DNA from: Micromonospora purpureochromogenes
GTDB taxonomy: Bacteria; Actinomycetota; Actinomycetes; Mycobacteriales; Micromonosporaceae
Direction: 5' to 3'
DNA length: 64,000 nt
Assembly: GCF_900091515.1 (NCBI RefSeq)
Contig: NZ_LT607410.1
Location: forward strand, 4,030,001-4,094,000
Shown: piece after piece, positions 29,988-38,606 of the stretch
Layout: the number at the start of each line of letters is the position of its first letter
Position numbering within the stretch: the first letter of the stretch is position 1
Made by a program: the position numbers and the translations under genes
Notes under the pieces: generated by a model
Databases searched by the model: none
Told to the model about the DNA's origin: nothing
The model's input: the letters and a program-made list of their open reading frames with translations, nothing else

Positions 29988-31494
29988 GCGGTGTCCACTT
30001 ACGTTCGTCGGATTGGTCGCTGCCGGAATTTGTCGTACCCGTTGGGTTGGGTGTGGTTGTGCCTCGTCGTCGGGATCCCAACGGGCCTCGGGTCGTGTAT
30101 CGCACGGCTCGTGTAGCTCTGCGGGTGACGGCTGGGCAGCGGCGGCGGTGTTTCGGATTGCTGCGCTCGGCCGGTGACGTGTGGGCGTGTGTCCTGGAGG
30201 TCAACGCGTGGCGACGCCGTCGCCAGGATGCGCCGCTGGCTGGTTATCAGCAGTTGTGTCGGGAGTTGTCCGGGCCGGGGCCGGGCACGTTCGGCGAGTT
30301 GGACAGCACGGGTGCCCGGTCGGTGTTGCGGCGGTTCTCCGATGCGTGGTTCGCGGCGGCGAAAGCCCGCCAGGACGGTGACCTGTCGGTGCGGTTTCCG
30401 CGTCGTCGGCGGGCGTTGATGCCGGTGCGCTGGTATCACGGCACGTTCACCCTCGACGGCCGTCGGGTCCGCCTCCCCACGGCCAGGGGCACGTCGCCGT
30501 TGTGGGTCAGGCTGGCGCGGGAGGTGCCCTACCCGGTCGAGCAGGTCCGCTCGGTCACCCTGCTGTGCGAGGGCGGCCGGCTGTTCCTCGACGTGACCGC
30601 CGAGGTTCCGGTGGCAACCTATCCGGCGGGCCAGGGGCCGGACCCGGACCGGGTGGCGGGGGTGGATGTGGGGATCATTCACCCGTATGCGGTGGCCGGC
30701 CCCGCTGGTGAGGGGCTGTTGGTGTCGGGGCGGGCGATCCGCGCGGAGCACCGCATGCACCTCGCCGACACCAAGACCCGCCGCCGCGCCGTGGCCCGCA
30801 GGGCACCGAAGCCGGGCCAGCAAGGGTCACGGCGGTGGCGGAAATACCGGCGGCGGGCGCGGTTGGGGGAGGGTCGGCATCGGCGCAGGGTCCGGCAGGC
30901 CCAGCACGAAGCCGCCCGCACGGTGGTCTCGTGGGCGGTAGAGCAGCGGGTCGGTGTGCTCAGGGTGGGTGACCCGCGAGGGGTCCTCGACATCGACGCG
31001 GGGCGGCGGCACAACCTGCGGCTGCGGCAGTGGCAGATCGGCCGCCTGATGCAGGTCCTCACCGACAAAGCTGTCCAGGCGGGCATCACCGTCGACACGG
31101 TCAACGAGCGCGGCACCTCCTCCACCTGCCCCGCCTGTCTGCGGCGGGTGCCGAAACCCCGTGGCCGGACCCTGACCTGCCCGCACTGCAAGTTCTCCGG
31201 GCACCGCGACCTGATCGCGGCAGCCATCATCGCCACCCGCACCCCGGGCGGCGGACCCACCACCCCCACAGCAGCCGTCGCGCTACCCGAGGTGGTCAAG
31301 CACCGTCGAGCCGGCCGACACCTTCCCGGTGCCAGCCAGTCCCGGCGTGATCCCCGCCGCCCACCACAGGCGGCGAGAGGATCAGTTGGCCCGCGGAGGC
31401 CCGCCTCACCACCAGGTGGGGAGTCGCTCGCCCAAACGGCGAGGATCCACAACGGTGCATCGGAAACCCGGTGAACACGTTTAGTGGACACCGC
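29988..31494 (+). mobile_element. TnpB-only insertion element
   Basis: A single tnpB gene is framed by a 12-bp perfect inverted repeat: GCGGTGTCCACT at 29988-29999 and AGTGGACACCGC at 31483-31494. The matching continues loosely inward (TACGTTC versus AAACGTGTTC). There is no TnpA partner and no evident target duplication. The left end also carries TTAC at 29999-30002, a tetranucleotide used at IS200/IS605-type cleavage sites. Boundaries are inferred from the repeat alone. Confidence 0.55.
30047..31474 (+). CDS. tnpB: TnpB-family RNA-guided nuclease-like protein
   Basis: Up to 475 aa from TTG 30047; GTG 30053 or 30059 are alternative starts. The fold order is N-terminal OrfB region, RuvC-I (RVAGVDVGIIHPYAV, Asp207), then RuvC-II at residues 300-320. 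Next is a zinc ribbon (CPAC at 361-364 and CPHCKF), then RuvC-III (GHRDLIAAAIIA, Asp388). In the RuvC-II strand the usual Glu of the I-E-D-L pattern is Gly308, followed by Asp309 (VLRVGDPRG). A Glu lies instead at position 354 in VNERGTSSTCP. The C-terminus has an 80-residue basic extension. A guide RNA, if made, would overlap the 3' end of this gene. Confidence 0.85.
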   Translation: MGVVVPRRRDPNGPRVVYRTARVALRVTAGQRRRCFGLLRSAGDVWACVLEVNAWRRRRQDAPLAGYQQLCRELSGPGPGTFGELDSTGARSVLRRFSDAWFAAAKARQDGDLSVRFPRRRRALMPVRWYHGTFTLDGRRVRLPTARGTSPLWVRLAREVPYPVEQVRSVTLLCEGGRLFLDVTAEVPVATYPAGQGPDPDRVAGVDVGIIHPYAVAGPAGEGLLVSGRAIRAEHRMHLADTKTRRRAVARRAPKPGQQGSRRWRKYRRRARLGEGRHRRRVRQAQHEAARTVVSWAVEQRVGVLRVGDPRGVLDIDAGRRHNLRLRQWQIGRLMQVLTDKAVQAGITVDTVNERGTSSTCPACLRRVPKPRGRTLTCPHCKFSGHRDLIAAAIIATRTPGGGPTTPTAAVALPEVVKHRRAGRHLPGASQSRRDPRRPPQAARGSVGPRRPASPPGGESLAQTARIHNGASETR

Positions 31495-33511: not shown

Positions 33512-35605
33512 TCAGGCTTCGCGCGGCGACGTGGCCAGGCTGGTCTGCCGGTCCGTCTCCTCGCCGCGCCGATCCACGCTGCCGATGGCGTCGACCCGGC
33601 CCCACCGCCCCGGGATGTCGAGCAGTTCGATGCGGCCGAACCGCTCGGGCAACGCCGGCCCGACCACCAGATCATCCCCGCACGGCTCGAGACCGAGCAG
33701 AGTGCGCACCAGCAGCAGGGGTGCTCCGGTCGCTTCGGACTGCGGACTGTTGGCCGTCGGGTACGGGACGGGGCCCCGGGTCAACTCGCGGTCGAAGCCG
33801 CCGAAGGCCTCCGGCAGCCTGCCCTGGAAGTGGTGCGACGCGTCGATGATCCCCTCGGCGATGCGGCCCGCCTCGCAGGTGAAGCCGTACCGGCGCAGCC
33901 CCCAGGCGATCAGGGAGTTGTCGGACGGCCAGACGGTGCCGACGTGGTACCCGAGCGGGTTGTAGCGGCCCTCCCCCTCGGCCAGGGTGCGTACTCCCCA
34001 GCCGGAGAAGAGGCGGGGGCCGAGCAGGTGTGCGGCGATCCTGGCCGCCCGGGACTCCTCGACGATGCCGCTCCACAACAGGTGGCCGATGTTGGAGGAG
34101 AGGGCGTCGACCTGGTGGCCGTCGCCGTCGAGGGCGAGGGCGTAGTACTCGCCGTCGGTGACCCAGAAGTCGCGGTTGAAGCGCTGCTTGAGCTCGGCCG
34201 CTTCGCGTTCGAGCCGGTCGGCGTAGTCGGGGTCGTTCCAGAACTGTCGGGCCAGCCGGGCGCCGCGGATCTTGGCGTCGTAGGCGTAGCCCTGCAGCTC
34301 ACAGGTAGCGCGGGGCAGACCGGCCAGCCTCCCGTCACGGAACGAGATCGCGTTGGGGGATTCCTTCCAGCACTGGTTCTCCAGCCCGGTTCGTTCGTTG
34401 CGCCGCTGGTACCAGACGTAGCCGTCGCCCATGATGTCGCCGTACTCGTCGATCCAGTGCAGGGCCGCCCGCGCCTCGTCCTCGAACTCGCGTACCGTAT
34501 CGGCGTCTCCGGTCCACCGCTCGTACTCGTCGAGCAGGGTCACGTAGAGCGGGGTGGTATCGGCGGCACCGTAGTAGGGGGCCTGCGGGCGTTCCTCGAA
34601 CGCGACCAGTTCCCCGTAGCGGAACTCCCTCAGGATCTTGCCAGGCTCCTCGTCCCGGAAGTCGTCGAGCACCGCGCCCTGGTCGATGCCGAGCATGTGC
34701 AGGGTGGCAAGGGCGAGGCCCGGTGCGAACGGCAACGCCTGCAGGCTGGTGAAGATGGCTTCCCGGCCGGCGATGGTAGCGCTCCACGGAAGCCCCGCCG
34801 CAGGCAGCGTCTCGGCCGGTAGCGTCAGCGGCGAGTACCCCAGCGCGGCGAGATCGACCATGGTCCGCCGGTACGTCCGCTCCAGTGGCTCCCAGGCGCA
34901 GATCAGCTGCGGAGCCGCGCCGAGCCACTGTTGGAGGTTCCACTCGAGCCGGGACCTGTCCCGCCTGCGGCGGCCGGGATAAACATGCTCCCGGACGTCC
35001 TCACCGTCCGGGCGCAGCACCAGGCCTCGGACGTGCAGCGTCGTGCTCCACTGGCCGTGCGGTTCGATGCGAGTCTGGTACGTCAGCCCCCGTTCGTCGA
35101 CCTGCGCCGGCTCGGTGGAGGAGATGACCGTCTCCCGGCGGAACGCGTCGCGCTGGTAGCCGAGATGCAGCCGGCCGTTCTCGACGCGCCGGTACAGCCG
35201 ACCCTTCGGCGTACGCCCCTGGGCCGCCACGATCAGCGGCACGAAGTCGGAGTCCGCCTCCACGTGGACGGTGATCTCGGCCGGTTCGCCGGAGTGGTTG
35301 AGCACCGTCAACTGCTCCTCGAAGCTACCGGCCACCGACCGCTCCCGGATCACCGACACCTTCGCGTCGACGTAGTGGGTGGGTGCGCCGGGCACCAGGA
35401 AGAAACGCACCTCGAAGTAGGACGGGTCGTCCCGGGCGAGCGGGCTCAGCCGTTCACCGTTGAGGGTCAGCCGCCAGAGGGACAGGAACCGGGTGTCGAA
35501 CGAGTAGAACCCGGACGGCGCAGTGGGCTTCGCCTCCAGGTCGCCACAGCCGTCGCTCAGCACGAAGATGTTGCCGTCGAGGATCCTGATCAGGTCCGTC
35601 TTCAT
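33512..35605 (-). CDS. glycogen debranching-like enzyme, copy A
   Basis: A 697-aa cytoplasmic protein. The N-terminal half (residues 1-220) is the glycogen debranching bis N-terminal domain (ILDGNIFVLSDGCGDLE, GFYSFDTRFLSLWRLTLNGERL). The C-terminal half is an (alpha/alpha)6 amylo-alpha-1,6-glucosidase-like barrel with EEPGKILREFRYGE, TPLYVTLLDEYERWTGD and HWIDEYGDIMGDGYVWY. Activity on glycogen or another alpha-glucan is a family inference. It overlaps its SCP2-like partner by four bases (ATGA). Its C-terminal half shares a 416-bp identical tract with copy B. In the barrel entrance it has WSATIAGREAIFTS where copy B has WFMAIFGRDSIFTS, a Glu for Asp change. Confidence 0.85.
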   Translation of the reverse strand: MKTDLIRILDGNIFVLSDGCGDLEAKPTAPSGFYSFDTRFLSLWRLTLNGERLSPLARDDPSYFEVRFFLVPGAPTHYVDAKVSVIRERSVAGSFEEQLTVLNHSGEPAEITVHVEADSDFVPLIVAAQGRTPKGRLYRRVENGRLHLGYQRDAFRRETVISSTEPAQVDERGLTYQTRIEPHGQWSTTLHVRGLVLRPDGEDVREHVYPGRRRRDRSRLEWNLQQWLGAAPQLICAWEPLERTYRRTMVDLAALGYSPLTLPAETLPAAGLPWSATIAGREAIFTSLQALPFAPGLALATLHMLGIDQGAVLDDFRDEEPGKILREFRYGELVAFEERPQAPYYGAADTTPLYVTLLDEYERWTGDADTVREFEDEARAALHWIDEYGDIMGDGYVWYQRRNERTGLENQCWKESPNAISFRDGRLAGLPRATCELQGYAYDAKIRGARLARQFWNDPDYADRLEREAAELKQRFNRDFWVTDGEYYALALDGDGHQVDALSSNIGHLLWSGIVEESRAARIAAHLLGPRLFSGWGVRTLAEGEGRYNPLGYHVGTVWPSDNSLIAWGLRRYGFTCEAGRIAEGIIDASHHFQGRLPEAFGGFDRELTRGPVPYPTANSPQSEATGAPLLLVRTLLGLEPCGDDLVVGPALPERFGRIELLDIPGRWGRVDAIGSVDRRGEETDRQTSLATSPREA
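33927..34342 (-). repeat. 416-bp inverted repeat, copy A
   Basis: Read on the minus strand this tract is identical, base for base in my line-by-line comparison, to 37821-38236 on the plus strand. It lies inside debranching gene A. Immediately outside it the two genes diverge at both edges. Confidence 0.92.
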
Positions 35606-35979
35606 CCGCGCCGCCCACGGTCACGGACGACGTCCCGCGGATGTCGCGCCCCGGGGGGAGGTGCGAAGAGCCGCTCCAACAGGACGATGAACCGAAACTT
35701 TCCCTCGCTCGTTATCTCGTTCCTCAGCCACGCCGGCAGCGGTTTGGCCTCGCCACGGACCATGCGGTCGAAGAAGGCACTGTCGGCACGGATGACGGCG
35801 TCGGCGTCGGCGTCCCGTTGTGACACGCGGACGGCACCGCCGCGGATCTCCACGAACCAGTGGTCGACCGCCTGGTCGTCTTCCAGGTCGAACCGGATGG
35901 TGCCGTTCGTCTTCTTCAGCACGCGTTCGTGGCCGTGTCGTTCGAGCGCGTCGAAGAATCTCCGGGTCGTCTCCGACAT
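35602..35979 (-). CDS. SCP2-like small protein, copy A
   Basis: A 125-aa soluble protein of the sterol-carrier SCP2-like type, with the pattern GTIRFDLEDDQAVDHWFVEIRGGAVRVSQRDADADAVIRADSAFFDRMVRGE. The region from about residue 90 is basic and ends PPGARHPRDVVRDRGRRG. SCP2 domains bind hydrophobic ligands; the ligand here is unknown. It is the first gene of a two-gene operon with debranching copy A. The same two-gene unit, with diverged sequence, occurs divergently at 36193-38606. Confidence 0.8.
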   Translation of the reverse strand: MSETTRRFFDALERHGHERVLKKTNGTIRFDLEDDQAVDHWFVEIRGGAVRVSQRDADADAVIRADSAFFDRMVRGEAKPLPAWLRNEITSEGKFRFIVLLERLFAPPPGARHPRDVVRDRGRRG

Positions 35980-36100
35980 GGCACCACCACCCCCGGGCAG
36001 AAGAATCGCGACCAGGATTCAGGATCGCTCAGATTGCGGTGCCCTGACCTCACCCGGAACGGATGAGATCGACGGGCCACTCACGCAGGACACGGAGATT

Positions 36101-36117
36101 TCACCCGGTGCGGGTGA
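36101..36117. promoter_or_regulatory. possible operator between divergent SCP2 operons
   Basis: TCACCCG and CGGGTGA are separated by three bases, an inverted repeat of 7 bp arms. A further TCACCCGG half-site is at 36050-36057. A second short inverted repeat (GGCGG-TACG-CCGCC) is at 36121-36134. They lie in the 213-bp region from which both operons are transcribed, so a common repressor or activator is plausible. Confidence 0.4.
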
Positions 36118-36192
36118 TGCGGCGGTACGCCGCCACCGGTCATCGTGAGGGTGGCTGCTCGTCCGGGCTCGGGGACCTACCGGAGGAGACTC

Positions 36193-36570
36193 ATGTCGAA
36201 TCCCACCGCCAACTTTTTCGACGCGCTCGGCCGGCGGGGCCACGAACCCCTCCTCGAGGAGGCCGTCGGCAGCATCCGGTTCGACCTCGAACACGACCAC
36301 GAGGTCGACCACTGGTTGGTGGTGATCAGACGCGGCGATGTCCACGTCTCGCGGGAGGAGAGCGGAGCCGACTGCGTGTTCACGGGCAGCAGAGCGGCCT
36401 TCGACCGGATCGTCACCGGCAGGTCGCACGTCTACGCGGCGTGGGTGCGTAACGAACTCAGGGCCGAGGGTGACGTGCGGCTTGGCCGTTTCCTCCAGCG
36501 GGTGATGCCGGGGCCACCCGGCGCGCACCACCCACGGGAGTTCGCCCGCCGGGAGAGCGGACCGGCATGA
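36193..36570 (+). CDS. SCP2-like small protein, copy B
   Basis: A 125-aa paralogue of the SCP2-like protein at 35602, same length. It shares the frame NFFDALGRRGHEPLLEEAVGSIRFDLEHDHEVDHWLVVIRRGDVHVS and the ending PPGAHHPREFARRE. The ATG at 36193 follows GGAGGAG. Its stop overlaps the start of debranching copy B by four bases (ATGA). The two SCP2 genes are divergent and flank a shared control region. Confidence 0.8.
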   Translation: MSNPTANFFDALGRRGHEPLLEEAVGSIRFDLEHDHEVDHWLVVIRRGDVHVSREESGADCVFTGSRAAFDRIVTGRSHVYAAWVRNELRAEGDVRLGRFLQRVMPGPPGAHHPREFARRESGPA

Positions 36571-38606
36571 GCGACGGACTCGTTCGACTACTGGACGGCA
36601 ACACGTTCGTGGTCAGTGAGGAGACCGGCGACATCGACGCGTCGCCGGCCATCCCGACCGGTTTCTTCTCGTTCGACACCCGGTTCCTGTCGAAATGGAT
36701 CCTCTCCATCAACGGTGAACGGGTCAACGCGCTCACCGTTGAGGAGGTCGACTACTTCGAGAGCCGATTCTTCGTCGTCCCGACCGTCCTGACCCCGCTG
36801 GTGGACATCAGCGTGTCGGCCATTCGTGAGCGCTCGATCGGCGAGAGCTTCAACGAGCGGCTGACCGTGATCAACCACGAACCCGGGCCCGTCGATCTGC
36901 GAATCCGGATCGACATCGAGAGCGACTTCGCCGACCTTTTCGAGATCAAGGACGTGCGCAACAAGAAGGGCGGGCACTACGCCCGGATCGAGGACGGGTG
37001 CCTGCGGCTCGGCTATCGGCGGGAGGCGTTCCACCGGGAGACGTTGGTTTCCTCCACGGAGCCGGCGCACATCGACGAGCGGGGGTTGACGTACGACGTC
37101 CGGCTCGAACCGCACGGCGAGTGGGTCACCGACATCCACGTGCAGACCCTGGGCGTGGACGGACGTGATCTTCGGGAGACTCTGCAGGGCTCGCCCGGTC
37201 GGGCCCGCGGGCAGATGCGGCAGGACCTGGACCGTTGGCTCGCGGAGGCCCCCCGTCTTACCTGCGACTCCCCCGCGTTGGCGATGACCTACCGGCGCAG
37301 CCTGGCCGATCTCGCCGCGCTGCGCTTCATGCCGCTGACCGGCGGCGGACATGCCCTGCCCGCCGCCGGCCTGCCGTGGTTCATGGCGATCTTCGGCCGG
37401 GACAGCATCTTCACCAGCCTGCAGGCGCTGCCGTTCGTGCCGGAACTGGCGGTCACGACGCTGCGCCTGCTGGCGCTGTTGCAGAGCGTCGTCCTCGACA
37501 ACTTCCGCGAGGAGGAGCCGGGGAAGATACTGCACGAACTGCGGTACGGGGAGACGATCGGCTTCGAGGAGCAGCCCCACTCGCCGTACTTCGGCAGCGC
37601 CGACTCCACGCCGCTGTACGTGATCCTGCTCGACGAGTACGAGCGGTGGACCGGAGACGCCGCCACCGTGCGGATGCTCGAGCGCTCCGCGAGAGCCGCG
37701 CTGCACTGGATCGACGAGTACGGCGACATCATGGGCGACGGCTACGTCTGGTACCGGCGCCGCAACGAGAAGAACGGGTTGGAGAATCAGTGCTGGAAGG
37801 ACTCCTGGGACTCGATCTCCTTCCGTGACGGGAGGCTGGCCGGTCTGCCCCGCGCTACCTGTGAGCTGCAGGGCTACGCCTACGACGCCAAGATCCGCGG
37901 CGCCCGGCTGGCCCGACAGTTCTGGAACGACCCCGACTACGCCGACCGGCTCGAACGCGAAGCGGCCGAGCTCAAGCAGCGCTTCAACCGCGACTTCTGG
38001 GTCACCGACGGCGAGTACTACGCCCTCGCCCTCGACGGCGACGGCCACCAGGTCGACGCCCTCTCCTCCAACATCGGCCACCTGTTGTGGAGCGGCATCG
38101 TCGAGGAGTCCCGGGCGGCCAGGATCGCCGCACACCTGCTCGGCCCCCGCCTCTTCTCCGGCTGGGGAGTACGCACCCTGGCCGAGGGGGAGGGCCGCTA
38201 CAACCCGCTCGGGTACCACGTCGGCACCGTCTGGCCCTTCGACAACTCCCTGATCGCCTGGGGGCTACGCCGCTACGGCTTCAGCCAGGAAGCGGGCCGC
38301 ATCGCCGAGGGGATCATCGACGGCGCCGAGTTCTTCGAGGGCAGACTGCCGGAGGCCTTCGGCGGATACGACCGGACGCTGACCCGGTATCCCGTGCTGT
38401 ACCCCACGGCGTGCAGTCCGCAGGCGTGGTCCACGGGCACCCCCCTGTTGTTGCTGCGCACCATGCTCGGCATGGAGCCGCGGGGGAACCACCTGGTGAC
38501 CAGGCCGGCCGTGCCCCCGGGCATGGGCCGGATCGAACTGCTCGGCATTCCCGGCCGGTGGGGCCGGGCCGGCGCCCTGGGACGCGCCCGCCCGGAGCGG
38601 CGCTGA
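36567..38606 (+). CDS. glycogen debranching-like enzyme, copy B
   Basis: A 679-aa paralogue of copy A with the same two-domain build: LLDGNTFVVSEETGDIDASP and GFFSFDTRFLSKWILSINGE in the N-terminal domain, and WFMAIFGRDSIFTSLQALPF, EEPGKILHELRYGE and YVWYRRRNEKNGLENQCW in the barrel. Residues 419-557 are encoded by the 416-bp tract identical to copy A. Outside that tract the two differ throughout. Enzyme class (amylo-alpha-1,6-glucosidase) is inferred from family; substrate unknown. It is translated with SCP2 copy B. Confidence 0.85.
   Translation: MSDGLVRLLDGNTFVVSEETGDIDASPAIPTGFFSFDTRFLSKWILSINGERVNALTVEEVDYFESRFFVVPTVLTPLVDISVSAIRERSIGESFNERLTVINHEPGPVDLRIRIDIESDFADLFEIKDVRNKKGGHYARIEDGCLRLGYRREAFHRETLVSSTEPAHIDERGLTYDVRLEPHGEWVTDIHVQTLGVDGRDLRETLQGSPGRARGQMRQDLDRWLAEAPRLTCDSPALAMTYRRSLADLAALRFMPLTGGGHALPAAGLPWFMAIFGRDSIFTSLQALPFVPELAVTTLRLLALLQSVVLDNFREEEPGKILHELRYGETIGFEEQPHSPYFGSADSTPLYVILLDEYERWTGDAATVRMLERSARAALHWIDEYGDIMGDGYVWYRRRNEKNGLENQCWKDSWDSISFRDGRLAGLPRATCELQGYAYDAKIRGARLARQFWNDPDYADRLEREAAELKQRFNRDFWVTDGEYYALALDGDGHQVDALSSNIGHLLWSGIVEESRAARIAAHLLGPRLFSGWGVRTLAEGEGRYNPLGYHVGTVWPFDNSLIAWGLRRYGFSQEAGRIAEGIIDGAEFFEGRLPEAFGGYDRTLTRYPVLYPTACSPQAWSTGTPLLLLRTMLGMEPRGNHLVTRPAVPPGMGRIELLGIPGRWGRAGALGRARPERR
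37821..38236 (+). repeat. 416-bp inverted repeat, copy B
   Basis: This tract is the plus-strand partner of 33927-34342. Identity starts at TTCCGTGACGGG and ends at GTCTGGCC; the next bases differ (CTTC here, GTCC in copy A). The copies are about 3.5 kb apart in opposite orientation. Confidence 0.92.

Follow-up and report, generated by a model that had tools for sequence, protein, structure and literature searches.

Recurrent gene conversion within head-to-head debranching-enzyme genes of Micromonospora and a short loop probably kept apart by selection

Two debranching-enzyme genes of Micromonospora purpureochromogenes, transcribed away from each other, share inside their coding sequences an inverted repeat that is identical base for base, and they are diverged on either side of it. 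The locus raises the question of which process made or keeps this inner stretch identical: gene conversion, an inversion switch, constraint on the DNA itself, or an error of assembly. The pair lies in a window of 64,000 nucleotides (contig NZ_LT607410.1, positions 4,030,001 to 4,094,000), the whole stretch of DNA analysed here, taken from a genome of a single contig of 6.67 Mb in which ten matches to the debranching-enzyme family were found.

The genes form a cassette of four in the order gdeA-scpA / scpB-gdeB, arranged head to head, with a gene of the SCP2 family preceding each gde gene (Table 1). Sequence and domain similarity place the gde genes among the GH133-like, archaeal-type debranching enzymes; a match of gdeB to the GDE_C domain fell slightly under the Pfam cut-off (20.6 versus 21 bits). 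The sole solved relative found with gdeB at E ≤ 0.01 was 7vma, an archaeal-type amylo-alpha-1,6-glucosidase (E = 1.1e-88). From their position between the divergent genes, the promoters of both arms would be expected in the central spacer.

Table 1. Features of the cassette (positions in the window)
Feature	Position	Strand	Description
gdeA	33512..35605	-	GH133-like (archaeal-type) debranching enzyme gene, 697 aa, with changed putative acid loop; open frame; Pfam GDE_N_bis and MGH1-like_GH
Converted tract in gdeA	33927..34342	-	416 bp, exact repeat match
gdeA loop motif WKESPN	34352..34369	-	Directly upstream of the tract, not homogenised; coordinates from tract offset
scpA	35602..35979	-	Small SCP2-family gene; 4-bp overlap with gdeA start
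Central spacer	35980..36192	.	213 bp separating the two divergent arms, at the middle of the head-to-head arrangement; from frame coordinates
scpB	36193..36570	+	Small SCP2-family gene; 4-bp overlap with gdeB start
gdeB	36567..38606	+	GH133-like debranching enzyme gene, 679 aa; open frame; Pfam GDE_N_bis and MGH1-like catalytic domain
gdeB loop motif WKDSWD	37794..37811	+	Residues 410-415; putative general-acid loop; usual form in the enzyme family
Converted tract in gdeB	37821..38236	+	416 bp, identical to the gdeA tract

The perfect repeat, first reported by a sequence-only reading of this DNA, was confirmed: the reverse-complement identity extends over exactly 416 bp, is maximal on both sides, and both tracts lie in codon phase 0. 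The divergence of the copies outside the tract was borne out as well. Identity between gdeA and gdeB (nucleotide/third position) was 0.66/0.55 before the wider segment that contains the tract, 0.95/0.92 inside it and 0.71/0.63 after it, and the two proteins share 466 of 677 aligned residues. Even at a local identity of 90%, the probability that an exact run of 416 bp begins at a given position would be about 1e-19, assuming independent sites. When four distant paralogues, out of the ten family matches of this genome, were aligned with gdeA and gdeB, no exact run exceeded 30 bp.

A search of 160 genomes of the same genus, the window strain (G000) included, identified the complete head-to-head pair in at least 14 genomes, with at least 15 pairs among the matches listed, two of them in G086 (G086a and G086b). 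A partial pair in G091, broken by contig ends, was excluded. The 15 pairs, whose members are labelled A (gdeA type) and B (gdeB type), were placed in one codon alignment, in which the A gene of G052 begins at its match start; relatives include M. phytophila DSM 105363 (G069), M. globispora S2901 (G010), Micromonospora sp. CB01531 (G056) and Micromonospora sp. KC606 (G089). In a wider sample of 250 genomes of the family, all whole-pair spans among the matches listed came from Micromonospora.

Comparison of these relatives, which the sequence-only reading had proposed as a way to look for conversion tracts, revealed long tracts in nine of the 15 pairs. In all nine the exact A/B run, 165-673 bp long, falls in one and the same part of the catalytic region: 673 bp in G152, 496 in G086a, 416 in G000, 392 in G089, 382 in G124, 370 in G043, 213 in G099, 189 in G032 and 165 in G056. 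The other six lack a long run, the longest measuring 128 bp in G110 and 38-73 bp in G069, G010, G086b, G112 and G052. Across the 15 pairs, all listed A/B runs of at least 35 bp fall in alignment columns 1058-1825. When the A gene of one pair was compared with the B gene of another, the longest run did not exceed 136 bp (median 40; 210 comparisons).

The same picture emerged from third positions and from trees. In ten 15-codon blocks (columns 390-539), third-position differences ranged from 0.03 to 0.23 within pairs and from 0.08 to 0.37 between species, the within-pair value lying below both the A-A and the B-B value in every block; in the 26 blocks preceding column 390, the within-pair value was the higher one in 24. 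In trees built from the 5' and from the 3' segment, the A and B genes of every one of the 15 pairs were separate, whereas in the tree of the middle segment the two genes of a genome came together in many species. Similarly, the nearest copy was of the same gene type for all 30 genes in the 5' part and for all 30 in the 3' part, while inside the tract nine of the 15 pairs were closest to their own partner. Tracts are identical within a genome, their sequence is specific to the species, and the linkage of 5' and 3' parts is unaltered. Likeness within a genome exceeds that between orthologues, tract borders are sharp, and the flanks keep their orthology without crossover, the pattern of concerted evolution. 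The recent gene conversion between inverted copies that had been read from the window is strongly supported, and conversion recurs in this segment in further species of Micromonospora.

Two other explanations of the identity find little room in these data. Strong constraint on the DNA of the segment could in principle preserve it without any conversion, and the segment is indeed better conserved between distant paralogues too (nucleotide identity 0.75-0.79, against 0.64-0.70 before it). However, the segment is more different between orthologues of two species than between the paired copies inside a genome, and the middle-segment tree groups by genome. Constraint alone is contradicted by these third-position differences between species, and its probability is negligible. 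An identity created by assembly collapse, mis-join or polishing error, the alternative raised by the sequence-only reading, is also very improbable, if slightly less so. Identical repeats that exceed the length of short reads are hard to place, and the matter is judged here from assemblies alone; nevertheless, long tracts of different sequence occupy the same segment in separate assemblies, several of them in 1-5 contigs, and a collapse is incompatible with the 25-45% third-position difference that flanks the tract on both sides. Misassembly was rejected as unlikely on this recurrence.

It had also been proposed that recombination between the inverted tracts could act as a natural switch, flipping the 3.5-kb interior and exchanging the 3' ends of the two genes to give alternate enzyme variants. 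Invertible gene segments whose coding frames recombine are a known class, and the present locus resembles them in having inverted repeats within two divergent reading frames. Here the repeats are inverted, free of mismatches and in the same codon phase, and chimeras of gdeA and gdeB built in silico from exchanged 5' and 3' parts are both open, as had been predicted. Yet exchanged 5'/3' types were found in none of the 15 assembled pairs, the gene type being kept in 15 of 15 at one assembly per species, a sampling in which a minority orientation within a culture would be invisible. The absence of a second orientation from these pairs sets the locus apart from known invertible segments.

The surroundings of the cassettes point in the same direction. 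Flanks are shared within the groups G000/G069/G010/G086a, G032/G043 and G052/G086b, and by a match of 110 nt between G099 and G124. In all 17 flank comparisons between species that gave a match, including this short one, each flank matched one on its own side, A with A and B with B, and no match joined an A-side flank to a B-side flank; a histidine kinase gene adjoins gdeA and an ABC transporter gene adjoins gdeB in four of four members of the first group. Moreover, a Pfam scan of nine nearby proteins detected no invertase. In the absence of swapped types and crossed flanks from the 15 assembled pairs, the switch was rejected, and we regard it as very unlikely.

Beyond these three shared-flank groups, neighbourhoods were unshared or nearly so, the surroundings of the cassette varying by species (loci L038-L047 and L158-L162). 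In view of the varied neighbourhoods and of the two cassettes in G086, the four-gene cassette may be mobile or transferred as one unit. In the window, a TnpB-like gene with OrfB_IS605 and Cas12f1-like_TNB domains lies about 2 kb from gdeA (positions 30047-31474, plus strand).

A special role of the head-to-head arrangement in conversion is suggestive. The one case found of neighbouring A-type and B-type genes in direct orientation, in G126 (L158, 5542-12135), has no identical run as long as 30 bp. Among other family members, two direct pairs from Plantactinospora loci had longest runs of 36 and 26 bp, and one convergent pair from a MAG had 61 bp. With so small a number of controls, and no matching for similarity among them, a driving role of the arrangement is not claimed.

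The latest event in the window strain can be placed in relative terms. M. phytophila, the nearest relative of G000, has no long tract (longest A/B run, 39 bp), which implies either that the event in G000 is younger than the split of the two or that the tract has decayed in M. phytophila; the former is probably the case. At the 41 tract sites where the two genes of M. phytophila differ, the G000 sequence agrees with A at 28, with B at 12 and with neither at one, the sites of each kind being arranged in blocks. The most recent transfer, over an older mosaic, was thus probably for the most part one of gdeA-like sequence into gdeB.

The borders of the tracts direct attention to a short loop. Eight of the nine long tracts start at columns 1270-1281, within 12 nt directly behind the loop motif. 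This motif, with positions counted from its first Trp, is WKDSWD in the gdeB gene of 14 pairs (WKDSPD in G052). In gdeA it is mostly WKESPN-like, with Glu at +2 in 13 of 15 and a residue other than Asp at +5 in 12 of 15. Over columns 386-574 of the nine homogenised pairs, the codons that differ most often in amino acid are +2, +4 and +5, each of them in seven of nine. Counted as cells of the alignment, 28 of 54 differ from +1 to +6, compared with 7 of 1026 from +7 to +120, so that non-synonymous differences are bunched in a small part of the homogenised sequence; from -28 to 0, however, 23 of 261 differ too.

The window pair is not homogenised upstream of the loop, and a clean island is visible in relatives, not in G000. 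In G099, the two genes are identical for 105 bp upstream of the loop and for 213 bp downstream of it, and in the loop itself CCG ACG (A) stands against TGG GAC (B); 31 codons to the left and 130 to the right are identical in G089, and 21 and 163 in G086a. The tract of G152 is the only one that runs through the loop, and its gdeA has the gdeB loop.

Since tracts in other species stop at these codons or straddle them, it appears that selection separates the WKDSWD of gdeB from the changed loop of gdeA. The loop is probably an island held apart in this way, and our preferred reading is that conversions across it are mostly selected against. The rival is that conversion proceeds as described and the island arose by chance or drift, the gdeA loop being simply free to vary. 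This is possible, though we think it doubtful. The +5 residue of gdeA is varied (N, H, T, K, E or D), and three of the 15 gdeA genes have Trp-Asp at +4/+5. Among 13 further A-type genes whose motif could be read, +5 was Asp in five and +2 was Asp in 11, and a gdeA loop so labile fits relaxed constraint as well as selection. Nevertheless, G086a, G089 and G099 are identical over 21-33 codons to the left and 70-163 to the right while differing at 2-4 loop codons, all non-synonymously, and drift after a single conversion would need hits in these loop codons only. In addition, all 15 gdeA genes have an unbroken frame, and 14 of them keep the RLPE motif (RLPD in G099). Taking tracts and loop together, we consider it highly probable that the head-to-head pair undergoes recurrent, segment-limited, non-crossover gene conversion, and probable that its two loop forms are kept apart by selection.

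What the loop may do is suggested by comparison with yeast, whose debranching enzyme needs Asp1241 and Glu1492 for the glucosidase step, as stated in the sections of PMC4837477 consulted. Counting along the alignment printed there puts Asp1241 at the last residue of WMD, two positions after the Trp (W+2). On this basis, Asp412 of gdeB would match yeast Asp1241, Glu596 of RLPE would be the base, and Asp415 is an alternative candidate for the acid. A profile alignment of the yeast enzyme to gdeB was weak and places WMD elsewhere than at WKDSWD. Outside the gdeA type, Asp was found at W+2 in all 80 motif copies and at W+5 in 77 of them, the copies coming from 78 of 80 named loci, which had partly been found by the pattern NQCWKDSW. 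A paralogue elsewhere in the G000 genome (L006, G000:C1:4964042-4969063) reads WKNSPD, with Asn at W+2, a further naturally altered form of the putative acid loop.

An interpretation of gdeA as a dead enzyme, from the loss of Asp at +5, was dropped because, by this count, yeast Asp1241 falls at W+2, which is mostly Glu in gdeA. This substitution raises the possibility that gdeA is active with changed chemistry or specificity. If selection does hold the two loops apart, gdeA would be an active-site variant and not a spare copy, and the short loop is likely to constitute the functional difference between the two debranching enzymes.

Mechanistically, conversion would be homologous, recurrent and without crossover, and confined to a catalytic segment of about 670 bp (aligned codons about 386-608). 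The conserved core would be the sole stretch similar enough for strand invasion between the copies; each conversion would renew the homology and so permit the next one, whereas the diverged 5' and 3' parts would not pair. A more speculative and rather unlikely extension is that two functionally different debranching enzymes share a continually renewed core, with the palindromic cassette serving as a conversion device and a loop of about five codons held apart. If this were true, bad mutations would be purged from the core and gains would reach both enzymes, with their division of labour kept.

The nine pairs represent a replicated natural experiment in bacteria, one sub-gene segment having been homogenised in nine pairs of a single genus. 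Its borders and the inner island are legible codon by codon, and they show how conversion and selection can partition one gene. A practical consequence is that trees and orthology calls built on the converted segment will mislead.

Searches of open-access literature brought up no report of conversion between these Micromonospora genes. 7vma, which we infer to be the same protein as the Thermococcus gammatolerans enzyme of PMC9142091, aligns with residues 9-649 of gdeB, including W-K-D-S-x-D and the RLPE-like site. In the excerpts of that article, the enzyme is a single one, and a paired copy with a changed loop is a feature of gdeA/gdeB. Long-lasting concerted evolution of prokaryotic paralogues, tuf and others, has been described (Wang and Chen, 2018; PMC6053082). 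There, too, according to the available portions of the article, copies within a genome are closer to each other than to orthologues of other species, recurrently over many lineages. In contrast, whole genes apparently evolve there as one unit, whereas here only an inner segment is affected, and the flanks and the loop are diverged. The head-to-head pair is likewise a feature of the gdeA/gdeB case. The words "glycogen" and "inverted" are absent from the main text of PMC6053082. As for the loop, the model of Teshima and Innan, as presented in extracts of Willett (2013; PMC3728101), holds that selection keeps islands of divergence despite gene conversion. The examples given there are eukaryotic (copepod, yeast, Rh and opsins), whereas here the pair encodes bacterial enzymes, the island is a putative acid loop and selection is deduced from the pattern. 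As far as these portions of PMC6053082 and PMC3728101 go, concerted evolution and selected islands are both already known kinds, and the loop resembles the latter in that a short non-synonymous difference persists within a homogenised stretch.
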